From: Liolophura sinensis
Taxonomy: Eukaryota; Mollusca; Polyplacophora; Chitonida; Chitonidae
Direction of reading: 5' to 3'
NCBI RefSeq assembly: GCF_032854445.1
Contig: NC_088304.1
Span: forward strand, 12,845,704 to 12,909,703
DNA: 64,000 nucleotides
Position 1 is the stretch's first letter, and each line of letters starts with the position of its first letter. The notes under the pieces were generated by a model, which had not been told where the DNA came from, did not search any database, and saw only the letters and a list, made by a program, of their open reading frames with translations. Positions 18,290 to 48,158 of the stretch are shown in pieces. The position numbers and the translations under genes are program-made.

Positions 18290-18845
18290 TCGGGGCTGGT
18301 AGATCCAGGGCCAGGTCCCGGGTAGTGTCACACCTAAGAATGGCGTTCATTAAGGGGGTAGTGATTTATTTATTTCATTGGTGGATTACGCCGTACTCAA
18401 GAATATTTCACTTATACGACGGCGGCCAGCATTCTGTGGGTGGAAACCGGGCAGAGCCTGAGGGAAACCCACTACCATCCGCAGGTTGCTGCAAGACCCT
18501 TCCCACTTACGACCGGAGAGGAAGCCAGCATAAGCAGGACTTGAACTCACAGCGACCGCATTGGTGAGAGGCTTCCGGGTCATTACGCTGCGCTAGCGCG
18601 CTAAGCAACTGAGCCACCGAGGCCCCAAAATGGGGTAGTGCAAAGACTGGTTGGTCCGTATCAATATAATGGCTCGGGCGGGACGGCTTACTTGCCTTCG
18701 GTAAGTCATCGCAGTGAAGCAGCACTAGATAAAAGAGCTGTGGAAATTCGTCTTGCAACAAGGAGGCACAGTACATGCACTCTAAGGAGTCCCTCGTCGA
18801 CTGAAAAATTGCACTCAATTGTACGACAAGCACTCGTTCACTCAC
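18290..18845 (+). mobile_element. SINE-B copy interrupted by a SINE-A
   Basis: The head remnant 'ggtagatccagggccaggtc' and 'cacacctaagaatggcgttc' are separated from 'ggggtagtgcaaagactggt' and the core by a minus-strand SINE-A at 18364-18626. This is a nested insertion. Confidence 0.88.
18364..18631 (-). mobile_element. SINE-A copy, full length, nested in SINE-B
   Basis: Complete reverse-strand element from 'tttatttatttcattggtgg' to 'gagccaccgaggcccc'. The target duplication ggggtagtg is at 18355-18363 and 18632-18640. Confidence 0.93.
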
Positions 18846-33800: not shown

Positions 33801-36800
33801 GCAAGCATAAACTGGGATATTCGCCATATTGGATTTATACAGAGATACTGATGACGTCAAGTGGACCGCTTTCTCTATAGTGAAACTTGACGAGGGTAAT
33901 ATTTTATGACCCCCCTCATGCACCGTGTTTATTGCTCGATTACTGCCTAAGGGCAATGGATTTTTACCTTTGCAATGAAAAAGACGCGCAGTTTACTTTA
34001 TCCCACACATTGTCGAATCGGTAAATATCCCGAAGACCATCCATACTCATTCAATCCTATGCCGCATCTAATGTTGCAATATTTACATTAACCATTGCCG
34101 TATTTTCTTTCCGTATCAGTGTTTTCGATTTGTTTTTTCCCTGTGAATTGCAGTATTTTTGATCTACACTCTATTGCTGTATTTTCTCTCAAAATTGCAT
34201 ATTATTGATTTTGAGATTTTGAGTGGGCAGCAAGTGTCTCTAGGGGAATTGCTAGGGGGCGTGTTATTTGCTGCTAATTAAGCATTTACAGGAACCGAAC
34301 GAAACCCTAAATGAGATAAATTGACAAGAGACTGTACTGCTCTCGTTTTATTCTCTATGCTGTGCGTCTTCAATTATACTGAAATCCTTTTACTTCATGA
34401 CCACCCACATATCCACCCCTCCTTATTTTTCGAATCTCGTACACCGTCGAATGATTGTTTACTGGATTTCTGAAAAGATGCCTTAGTAACAATTGCTTGA
34501 GAATGTACTATGAGTCAGCCGAAAGTACGTCACGAGCTCAAATTCCTAGCAACAATTTGCGCCTTTAACCAGTAATGTTATCTACAAGACTGACGTGTGA
34601 TTAACAAAGACTGTGACCTTGTATATTTGGGTCTAGTGGGTCATCGTTTGTTGTGTATACATGTTATCAAAGCAGCATTTCTATGTCCGGAAAATAGGTG
34701 ACTCGATGGTCTATTAAGCTTGCTTTAACGTTGACAAAATAAGATAACCATCACCTGAAATTCGGCACTCGATACAAAACTATACCATGTATAGGCTTAA
34801 TCTCTGTAGAAAAAGCTCTGACGCACAAAATTCTACAGGTGCCATTGCCTGACCGTGTCGAGTATATCATCAGGTTTTGTATTTCTTCTTATCCATTTTA
34901 AGGCCACACGATGCACGGGCTAACCTTGTAACACTGTAGGGGGTGTGACGTTAAAGAAACGTTCTCCATAAGACGAGTATCGTTAACTTTAAACGTCCAA
35001 GAATTTCTTTCAAATTACACGCTTATTGTATCATGTCAAGGTTACACAGGATATGGTTGACCGATTTCAAGGTGGAGCTTTAACATGGATTGTTTTTCGC
35101 CAAAGTAAATTAAATTAAGCCCAGTGTGTTTTTGGACCAAATGTTCCGTTTTAACATTGAATAAAAAAAACTTTTTTCTCTATGTATTTTGTCAAAAAGC
35201 CGAGCCTTTTAACATATGAATTCTTTTAATATCTGTTGTTAGGAAAAGTAACTTAAAATGATTGTGGGAGTATATTTTAAAGTGTATATGTCGGTCAAAA
35301 AAAGGTTTTGATTTGACTATGCGGTCGCTCTCCTGTCATCTGGAAAAACCTAGTAAGTCAAATTTTGGTGAAAAATGAGTTAGGCCCACAACTGGACTTG
35401 CTATGTTTTTCTCTTTCATTTCATCCAGGTAAAGTGTGTGAAAGTCCCTCCTGTTGGGAATTTTTGATCTTGAAGAACCTAGTAAGTCAATATCATGCGG
35501 AAAAATACCACATAGTCATCTGGGAAAACCTAGTAATTCGTCTTGCTAGGTTTTTTCAGATCAATGTACGACTACATGTCACTTACTAGGTTCTACAAGA
35601 TCAAAAGCTCTCAACAGGAATCGCTTTCACACTCTTTACCTGGATCAATTGAAAGGGAAAAACATAGCAAGTCAAATTATTTCTCATATGAGTTAAACCA
35701 ATCACATTACCTAATTCTGGTCATGTGATCACAACAAATTGGACAACTTTTTTAAAGACAATTCAGTCAGGATGTTCTCACGTTTTCTGTACCCATTATC
35801 GAGAAGACCACGATGGTGCTGTTGATAAGGAAAACACCAGTATATTTACTGTAGATATGCAAAAGGTTATCCTCCTTCCCAAAATGACCATCAAAGAACA
35901 TTTCTTTGTTAGCAGATTAGTTGTCTTCAATGAGACATTTGCATCAGTAAAAGAAGACGGTGACTTTGTTATTTTGTGGCATGAGGCTATCAGGGGTAGA
36001 TTAGGAGTTGACATTGCCTCCACGTATATAAAGTGTTTGTGCCTTTGTGAGACAGATTTTGTGATATTCTGGGCAGACAACTGCACGGGACAAAACAAAA
36101 ACTGGGTCCCTTACACGGTGTTGTGTTGGTGTGTCAATCAACCCTGGGGCCCACAAAGTATCACAATGAAGTATTTTGAAAGGGGACACACTTTTATGCG
36201 TGCAGACAGCGTCCATGGCTGCATTGGAAGGAAAATGAAGAAATGTCCCGAGATTTGTAATTTCCAGGACTTCGTAGATTTGTGTGACAAATCGGGAACT
36301 AAGATCAAGCCAATCACAATGCAATACCATGACTTTTATGAATTTGAGGACGGTCACGGTAATAGAAAGTCCAAGAACGTAACGCTACCTCATCTCAGCT
36401 CCATATCAGTGGCAGAATTTCGTAAAGGTTCACGCGCAATGTGGTTTAAGGAGGGTTTTGAAGGAGACTACATGTACCAGGAAGTTGACTTTCTTAAACC
36501 CAAGTTCAGACTGGACTTTACACCACCAACACAGAATGAACCAAGAGGAATTCCTAGCGTGAAACGCCAGAATATTCTGAAACTGGCCGATTCATTCCCC
36601 GCTGCTAAGAGGAAATTCTGGCAGGAAATTCCAGTAAATGACAACAATGATGACCTTGTTGAACACTTTGGGTGATTCCTAAATATGTAATCAAGCTGCA
36701 GTTGCTGCTATTCCTCGAAAATGTCTCAGACTGGTAGATTTATTTACCACGGCTAAATTCTGGCTGGAAATCACAGCAAATCATGATCTTGTTGATTAGT

Positions 36801-39800
36801 TAAAACACTTGTTTTATGTATTCAAACTACACTTGGTGTTATTTCTCTGATAATTGTTCATGTGTTAGGCAATAAAGTGAAGTTATCACGCTGCTGTTGA
36901 CATACTAGGCTTTTGTTGATAAAATGTTTTAGTTGAAGGATTGGTTAGATCAGGTAAAACATAGTAAGTCATTTTGTAACCAAATTAAACCAGTAACAAT
37001 AATATACCTATGTGAGCTGAAAAGGCATCTAATTGTCTTGATCTAAAATGCCGAAATAAAATTTATTTCATATTTTGCAGCTTAATCCTGAAACAAAACA
37101 CGTTTCCTTTGTTTCCTCCAATTTGCATTCAACTGACTAACTAGGTTTTTCCAGATTACAGGAGCGCTGTGAGTCCAGCTCATGCTGGCTTCCTCTCCGG
37201 CTGTACGTGGGAAGGCTCGTCAGCAACCTGTGGATGGCCGTGGGTTTCCCTTGGGCGCTGCCCGGTTTCCACCTACCATAATGCTGACCGCCGTCGTATA
37301 AGTGAAATATTCTTGAGTACGGCGTAATACACCAATCAAATAAATACTAGATTTGACTATTATATGAAGTTCAGGCTCAAACGAAAATTGAGCATCTTGT
37401 GTGGTATTAAACTGAGTGTAGAAAAAGTGTGAACACGTGACCGTGGTAGGTTTAATTTTCTAAATCATCTGACGCACTGACCCACTAGATTTACCTCCAG
37501 TCGAAAGAGCGCTACACTTTTAAAGGGAGTTAACTGTTAGTTTAGGACCCCGGGAAATGTCTTTCAAGGTGTCGCGGGTCAAAATGTACTTTTGCAAACG
37601 TGAACAAATTCATCTCTCTGGAATAAAATTCGCTGCAAGCCTATTAATCTGTAATTTTCATTTTTTTTTTCAGAATGGAAATATGAGGGTGAACAAGGTG
37701 AGTACACAGACGATTTCAATTATCAACTTCATTTTGATGAATATATGTAGAGGAATGCCTAGAATATTAAAGCTTGTGGGTGCCGGATGAAGGATACTAA
37801 CGACAATTTATCGAAATATATCCCACTCTTGCTTTGCTAGACCTTGCCCTATATTTTCCATACCTACAAGAAGGGGCCATAATGCGTTTTGCAACCACCT
37901 CGCGCAGCATCTGATTCTCCTTTTTGTTTGCTTTCTAAAAGGTCCCAACGCATGGAAAGACATTCAGAGCAACTGTGGCGGCCGCGCTCAGTCTCCTGTC
38001 AACATCGACACTTCCAACCTGATCTTTGACGAGTTCCTTGCTTCAGATCCCTTCATATTCCACGGCTATGACAGCGCTGATAATCTGGGCATAACCATGT
38101 CTAACAGTGGACATTCAGGTAGGGAAATTACCCGGTAACGTTTGGAACTTTTATTTCCTCAATAGGGAACCAGAAGGAACTATAGATTTACACTTCGCCT
38201 GACTGTCCACGCGTCTGTGAATTCTGCAGTCTGTCACTCCTTCAGACTAGTTTCCAGGACGTTTTTCAAAACGGTGTACGGGCCCGTGGCCAAGAGTTTG
38301 GCATGCTTGCGCTGTATAGGTCAGACCAGCAGAATGGTCGTGGGTTTCTCTCGTGCTCTGCCTGGTTTCCTCAGACCATAATCCTGGTCACCGTTGTATA
38401 AGTGAAATATTCTTGTACAGCGTAAAACATCAAATATCAAGACAAAAAAAATCGAAATTTGAATCCTGGAGAACAATTTTTGTACTTATATTTGTAGTTT
38501 TTGTCAGTGTGTTTGTAGTTTTTATGTGTAGTTTTTATAATTGTTATATATTTCAGTCCAGCTTACGTTCACCGGTGAGCAACGTTTTCTAACCGGAGGT
38601 AATCTACCAGGCATCTACAACCTTCTGCAGATTCACTTCCACTGGGGAAGCTCTAGCAATCAGGGGTCTGAGCACGCCTTAAATGGCAAATTCTTCCCAA
38701 TGGAGGTAAGATTTTCCATTTATTCAGCAAAAAATGATCTTAAATTTAACAGTTATCTGAGTGATGCCGTAATGTTTTGTTTTTTTTTTTTGTTTTTACA
38801 TCAAATTATTCTGTTAAATATAACCCACATATTCTATTAATTCAGCCTAACGACTCTATTAGGTCAACAGGATATTGAATATAACATAATATCGTGTTTT
38901 AAAGAAGAAAACCCCAAAACATGACACTATAGGCTAAAAAGAGCACATTTTTTTTCTATCTGGTGCCTGCTGCATAATTTTGCTATTTTTCCTCGCCATA
39001 CAAGCCTGAAAACGGCAAAGTTGGCATAAATCGCTGAGTCCATCGCGCCCTCCATCTTTAACACTCTGTAATATATGCTGAGGTGTGTTACCTCTCAGCC
39101 AATGACAGTCGTTAAAACTACCGGCTTGTTGTGTAAACTCGGGACCTACGTCCAACATTCCGGTTTACCGATCGTCAAGCGGAAAACGAACTGTATTGTT
39201 CGCTACCTTCTGGGAAGAAGAGTTCTACCAAAAATGTATGAACTGCACTTCGGCGGTTTCCGACGGCAATTCTACGAAATACAGAAAGACTTCAGGACTA
39301 GTTCTTTGGCAAAATGGAGTCGCCCACAGCGGATTTTGGCGCTGACTTTATTTAGAAATAAAGAACGTGTGGTACATATTAGAATTTTTGTTATAACATG
39401 CACCTGCGAGTAAAATCAGTCTTTTCAATGATATTTGAATGATATTTAAATTTTCTTCTCCTTTATTAACAGAATGCATTCTAGCATCACTCAGACAACA
39501 TACTTTCTGTTAAAATGAACAGATTATTTTTTCGAATGTATACTCCTTAATTCTTCACTTCTAAGGTGTGTTATCATGGCCCTGTCCACCTGTCTAAAGC
39601 TATTGACCGAAAATTATAATTAGGGACGCATTTAAAATTACCCATAGACATGTAAATCCGTAATTACACAAATCTGCATACCAGACATTGGAACAGGATC
39701 TTTTCATTCTGTTTTCCTCATTCTCATGGGAGGAGGAGGGGGTCATTCATCTGTGTAACGGACAAATGATATAGTTCAAATTCTTTCAGATTAAAAGTTT

Positions 39801-47887: not shown

Positions 47888-48158
47888 GTGGCCTCCGTGG
47901 CTCAGTTGATTAGCGCGCTAGCGCAGGGTAATGACCCAGGAGTCTCTCTCCAATGCGGTCGCTGTGAGTTCAAGCCCAGCTCATGTTGGCTTCCCCCCCC
48001 CGGCCGTACGTGGGAAGATTTGCCAGCAACCTGCGGATGGTCGTGGGTTTCCCCCGGGCTGTGCCCGGTTTCTACCCACCATAATGCTGGCCGCCGTCGT
48101 ATAAGTGAAATATTCTTGAGTACGGCGTAAAACACCAATCAAATAAATAAATAAATTA
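47888..48158 (+). mobile_element. SINE-A copy, full length, 10-bp target duplication
   Basis: Well-preserved element. The target duplication aacttaactg is at 47878-47887 and 48159-48168. A good consensus candidate. Confidence 0.95.

Follow-up and report, generated by a model that had tools for sequence, protein, structure and literature searches.

A non-autonomous, internally deleted DUF7869-type element in the mollusc Liolophura sinensis and its probable affinity to Sola transposons

Sola transposons are characterized, in a 2023 review (PMC10741241), by a DDD transposase, 4-bp target site duplications and variable inverted repeats, and they are placed there in both bacteria and metazoans. 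For the Sola2 elements of amoebae, Bao and Jurka (PMC3627910) give target duplications of the type AWWT, and a bivalve survey names Sola1 and Sola2 among the transposons of molluscs (PMC10294476). Duplications of 4 bp are also produced by Kolobok and piggyBac elements, which are described as TTAA-specific (PMC9587614). Here, we describe an 1835-bp element at positions 35330-37164 of a 64,000-nucleotide stretch of the Liolophura sinensis genome (contig NC_088304.1; the whole stretch is referred to below as the window). The element contains an open reading frame that resembles DUF7869, a Pfam domain of unknown function; no paper naming this domain was found in our literature search.

We consider it very probable that the element, which is non-autonomous, arose by internal deletion from a 3.7-kb DDD/DUF7869 transposon, that it was moved in trans and that its most likely place is in the Sola superfamily. 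With Sola, as presented in these texts, the family of the window element shares a DDD transposase, terminal inverted repeats and the 4-bp duplication. It differs in its ends, which begin with CTCCTG, and in duplications that are looser than the AWWT given for amoebal Sola2; most Sola elements are said in the same sources to measure 2-9 kb, whereas the window copy is an internal-deletion form of 1.8 kb. The Ds elements of the Ac/Ds system have kept their ends, lost part of the transposase gene and multiplied in trans, and they can outnumber their parent. Our element is similar to Ds in its internal deletion, its preserved ends and the excess of short over long copies (13 versus 3), but it is from another superfamily and has a large coding remnant that is still open in 6 of the 13 short copies.

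Ends, insertion site and genomic copies

A preliminary description of the window had reported inverted ends of 31 bp with two mismatches, an exact duplication of CGCT and the interruption of a known short interspersed nuclear element (SINE); the ends, the duplication and a clean insertion were recovered in our analysis (Table 1). The interrupted sequence is a multi-copy interspersed repeat within the window, as identified with blastn, and is SINE-like. With the element removed, the joined flanks can be aligned to the other window copies of this repeat. Fifteen of these copies span the junction; CGCT is present once in nine of them, the remaining six have a variant of these four bases, and neither a duplication nor an insert was seen at the junction in any of the 15 copies. 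The repeat is very dense, with 37 further blastn pieces in the 64 kb (e.g., 47953-48149 and 18367-18561).

Searching the host assembly (609 Mb) with the whole element, we identified at least 13 full-length copies, including the window copy, plus pieces of 4 further copies. The count is a lower bound taken from the 20 candidates scored and does not include copies that lack internal similarity. The 13 copies match the element from its first to its last base and have the same termini. Their pairwise substitutions, gaps aside, have a mean of 0.44% (range 0.05-0.77%), and the window copy carries a private deletion of 6 bp outside the open reading frame. Among the short copies, 12 of 13 are bordered by exact 4-bp duplications, as are all four longer or rearranged ones, and these ends and duplications had been expected of other genomic copies in the preliminary description. 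Since 16 of 17 copies have exact duplications, the element has transposed as a unit, and it has multiplied recently. In one of the longer copies, L044, the left terminal repeat is a few bases short and its boundary was placed by hand, yet the copy has an exact AGTT duplication; the shortened end may still work, or the shortening may have occurred after insertion.

The internal deletion and movement in trans

Three copies with the same ends as the window element (L042, L043 and L044) are ~3.7 kb long and have an additional 1867-1868 bp at element position 461/462. This extra segment comprises a first exon starting with MASRGK, an intron bordered by GTAAGT...TTTCTTTGTAG and, in the first part of exon 2, clusters of cysteines, an exon-intron structure that is a reading of the sequence only. 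The segment leads directly into the part that is retained in the window copy. A search of the assembly with the internal part retrieved these three copies and L045, in which the internal deletion is a different one and the duplication is AATT; the remaining matches listed were short and aligned to a repeat within the query (40 of 2054 candidates scored). Sister sequences in the genome, recovered in a protein search, have 38-47% identity and frames of 427-566 amino acids, with a stop inside the match in two of three.

The element had been taken for a complete transposon, which can no longer be maintained. Relative to the longer copies that share its ends, the window copy lacks ~1.87 kb, including the start of the transposase and its N-terminal half; it is thus derived by internal deletion and is non-autonomous. 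From position 35692 to the deletion junction, its frame consists of sequence that lies ahead of the first exon in the parent and is here read in frame, and the first in-frame ATG, at 35857, is located immediately 3' of the codon for the first invariant aspartate (D1), with none preceding it. The window copy is therefore unable to make a full transposase.

The frame of 327 amino acids is open in six short copies (L012-L017), contains in-frame deletions in two (L022 and L024) and is broken in five (L018-L021 and L023). A one-base deletion at element position 728 is common to L018, L020 and L021, as are substitutions at positions 292, 710, 781 and 1479, and these copies are flanked by three different duplications, CACT, ATAA and ATTG. 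L023 has three of the four substitutions; its duplication is AAAT, and a 25-bp deletion covers the position of the one-base loss. Because three copies with one common frameshift occupy three sites with different duplications, the best explanation is that a broken-frame lineage has moved several times with transposase from another copy. For the window element itself, a fuller relative is the probable source of the transposase that moved it.

In the mechanism that we propose, the parent would be a 3.7-kb cut-and-paste element coding for a two-exon DDD transposase, the catalytic core of which would correspond to Pfam DUF7869. The complete enzyme, acting in trans, would bind to the inverted ends and probably also to the repeated subterminal motifs, excise the element, presumably by RNase-H chemistry, and insert it at a target cut with a stagger of 4 bp, with a loose preference for C-ANNT-G. 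Filling of the gaps would leave the 4-bp duplication.

The subterminal motifs, which had been noted previously as repeated, are of the type AACCTAGTAAGTCA. With at most two mismatches allowed, there are 8 matches in the window as compared to 0.56 expected, and all 8 are within the element. A role as transposase binding sites is plausible for these putative motifs. A literature search for the motif gave only chance strings among the matches listed. The imperfect palindrome in the 5' subterminal part has a fold z-score of -16.6 and recurs in the 12 other short copies as well as in L042-L045. It is bordered by a direct repeat, in diverged form, of the terminal region and therefore resembles an old rearrangement of subterminal sequence. 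A nested miniature inverted-repeat transposable element was rejected as its source, the palindrome being common to other copies, and no direct 4-bp duplication was seen by eye at its outer edges.

Table 1. Coordinates of the element and its parts in the window.
Feature	Position	Strand	Remarks
5' stub of interrupted SINE-like repeat	35320..35329	+	
Left target site duplication	35326..35329		4 bp, CGCT
Left terminal inverted repeat	35330..35360	+	31 bp, begins CTCCTGTCATCTGG
Five-motif 5' subterminal cluster, AACCTAGTAAGTCA type	35347..35674		35347+, 35476+, 35527+, 35579-, 35661+
5' subterminal imperfect palindrome	35395..35673		~280 nt, 76% in gapped self-alignment
Open frame, C-terminal half of DUF7869-type (very probable) transposase	35692..36675	+	327 amino acids, stop to stop
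Internal deletion junction	35790..35791		Site of an additional 1867-1868 bp in the longer relatives: exon 1, intron and N-terminal part of exon 2
Codon of first invariant Asp (D1)	35854..35856	+	
Codon of second invariant Asp (D2)	36076..36078	+	In ADNCTGQNKN
Codon of third invariant Asp (D3)	36205..36207	+	In GHTFMRADSVH; 42 residues between D2 and D3
3' subterminal motifs, AACCTAGTAAGTCA type	36898..37147		36898-, 36958+, 37134-
Right terminal inverted repeat	37134..37164	-	31 bp, 2 mismatches to the left one
Right target site duplication	37165..37168		4 bp, CGCT
Remainder of interrupted SINE-like repeat	37165..37346	+	

DUF7869 proteins and target sites in animals and bacteria

The blocks ADNCTGQNKN and GHTFMRADSVH, from which the open reading frame had been called DUF7869-like, are present in the frame, and it has the core blocks DNCxGQNKN and GHTxxxxD in common with the Pfam family. 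It differs from that family in a score under the cut-off and in the loss of the N-terminal half that is found in longer relatives. We aligned it to seven DUF7869 proteins with scores over the cut-off, five from the host genome and two from bacteria; the alignment left out L006 and L007, which are near-identical to L005, as well as L010, which is in pieces, and the bacterial loci L062-L068. Three aspartates are invariant in all eight proteins, the second and third being separated by 41-42 residues, and they may represent the catalytic DDD triad. The earlier assignment stands as far as the blocks and the three aspartates are concerned, but the window frame is a divergent relative of DUF7869 and not a member by score. 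At 31 other places in the host genome, DUF7869 was identified over the cut-off.

A search with a degenerate pattern representing the DNCxGQNKN block gave three bacterial stretches, two of which code for DUF7869 proteins, in Desulfocicer vacuolatum and Candidatus Thiomargarita nelsonii (66.7 and 77.3 bits, respectively), while the third, L001, was dismissed as a chance match. Of 291 genomes sampled within the class to which Desulfocicer vacuolatum belongs, 7, including its own, contain the domain at scores exceeding the cut-off. Inverted repeats of 37-61 bp surround the gene in six of eight bacterial loci, a count that leaves out L069, a weak match below the cut-off; none were seen at L073, and L065 is cut by a contig end. 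With element boundaries placed by eye at GG, exact 4-bp duplications (ATTT and AAAT) were recovered at two of the six loci with inverted repeats. The flanks of L067 and L074 are ATAT/ATTT, with three of four bases matching, and those of L002 are AAAT/ATTT, with two matching; no exact duplication was read at L075 either. The Desulfocicer insertion (L002:4065-4595) is located at the end of a frame that we take to be integrase-like; its left and right flanks form no duplication, and the copy may be rearranged. No DUF7869 relatives were confirmed among viral contigs, and searches of plasmids, PHROGs and NCBIfam gave no useful match.

Two further families of the host genome, B and C, were examined for their flanks. 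In family C, all three copies read have 4-bp duplications (ATAT, ATAT and ACAT) and the ends are GAAGAG...CTCTTC; in family B, one copy has AATT, another has ATAT/ATAC and the third was read on one side only. The family C copies (L070-L072) are 2.9 kb long and near-identical, with an open frame of 451 amino acids, and the family looks recently active; six more places in the genome have the same score of 41.4 bits. One protein in the animal assembly (L004, G000:C4:7252241-7255774) resembles the bacterial ones, with the blocks HYSFDYAQQVHLP and GHTKFAPD. It is 33% identical to the Thiomargarita protein, as compared to 19-22% for the other five animal-genome rows of the alignment, and may reflect transfer between domains or an old lineage. 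Taken as a whole, DUF7869 is very probably a transposase family in animals and bacteria.

Where the duplication is exact in the window family (16 sites), the base preceding the duplication is C in 11, the first duplicated base is A in 11, the fourth is T in 9 and the base that follows is G in 9. These duplications represent 14 different sequences, none of which is TTAA. None of 5000 draws of random sites matched the C-ANNT-G consensus as well; since the consensus was picked after seeing the data, this comparison overstates the evidence. Pairing within sites is not strong (5/16 at positions -1/4 and 6/16 at 0/3). The six exact duplications from families B and C and from bacteria, which are outside the consensus set (AATT, ATAT, ATAT, ACAT, ATTT and AAAT), fit ANNT in all six cases and AWWT in five. 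We regard the target of the window family as a loose leaning to C-ANNT-G.

Alternative explanations and implications

If the 1835-bp form were instead the complete, autonomous element, the 3.7-kb copies would carry an insertion of 1.87 kb. The short form is indeed the commoner one, and its frame is open, or changed by in-frame deletions only, in 8 of 13 copies. The extra segment is, however, unlike a foreign insert, as it supplies the N-terminal half with its cysteine clusters and a lead-in to D1 as in other DUF7869 proteins, while the short frame has no ATG ahead of D1 and is broken in five copies, among which one frameshift is common to three copies at different sites. This makes the alternative very unlikely. 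Even more improbable, to the point that we reject it, is that the frame belongs to a host DUF7869 gene captured or domesticated between inverted repeats. An open frame and an unnamed Pfam family would be compatible with such an origin, but remnants of the same protein occur together with the ends and exact duplications in 16 of 17 copies, frames are broken in 5 of 13 short and 3 of 3 long copies, and inverted repeats flank most of the bacterial loci.

A more serious question is whether the element and mechanism are as we propose, with DUF7869 forming a superfamily of its own or belonging to a named superfamily other than Sola. The diversity of the duplications in the window family is in line with this, as are the differences between the ends of the window family (CTCCTG), of families B and C (GAAGAG) and of the bacterial elements (mostly GG), the placement by hallmarks and the lack of papers that name DUF7869 in our literature search. 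On the other hand, the DDD triad, the 4-bp duplication and the occurrence in both bacteria and animals are all as published for Sola, and we judge the alternative to be unlikely. A bolder form of it, which we rate slightly lower still, is that DUF7869 is a distinct, non-Sola DDD superfamily that encompasses insertion sequences of bacteria as well as transposons of animals, with a shared 4-bp stagger that tends towards a palindromic C-ANNT-G target and with the L004 lineage suggesting transfer between domains. The Sola groups reportedly differ among themselves in ends and target preference, as Bao et al. are said to have shown in 2009.

Several observations weigh against the interpretation of the element as a Sola-type derivative moved in trans. 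All three 3.7-kb copies are broken in frame and no intact parent was seen. The window frame has 19.5 bits against Pfam DUF7869 (PF25273), for which the curated cut-off is 26, and searches of the PDB by sequence and by profile gave no transposase, only weak matches to non-transposases. The AlphaFold model of the catalytic core, run with three sequences, had a mean predicted local distance difference test score (pLDDT) of 40, which is too poor for a fold call. Among the duplications, one short copy (L014) has unmatched flanks, AAGG/CGCT, no exact duplication is present at four of the six bacterial loci that have inverted repeats, and the exact duplications of the window family fit AWWT in 4 of 16 and ANNT in 5 of 16 cases. 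Finally, the placement in Sola is by published hallmarks only. With these points considered, Sola is still the superfamily to which the window family most likely belongs.

The preliminary description had also put forward the locus as one that ties this protein type to a defined element. The termini and the 4-bp duplication are definite, but the combination of a DDD transposase and a 4-bp duplication fits the published Sola superfamily, and the tie is for that reason probably new for the DUF name and not for the biology. What is new is probably the annotation of DUF7869 as a transposase, while the kind of element is, by its Sola hallmarks, already known. For the locus, what had been read as a complete transposon is now understood as a deletion derivative, probably moved in trans. 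For the family, our results give an anatomy to a domain whose function Pfam lists as unknown, in that DUF7869 proteins very probably act as transposases on elements whose ends can be defined and whose insertion duplicates 4 bp of the target, and annotators can cease treating these genes as host genes. They also provide a testable link between DUF7869 and Sola, and the young copies with known ends can be used in excision and integration assays.

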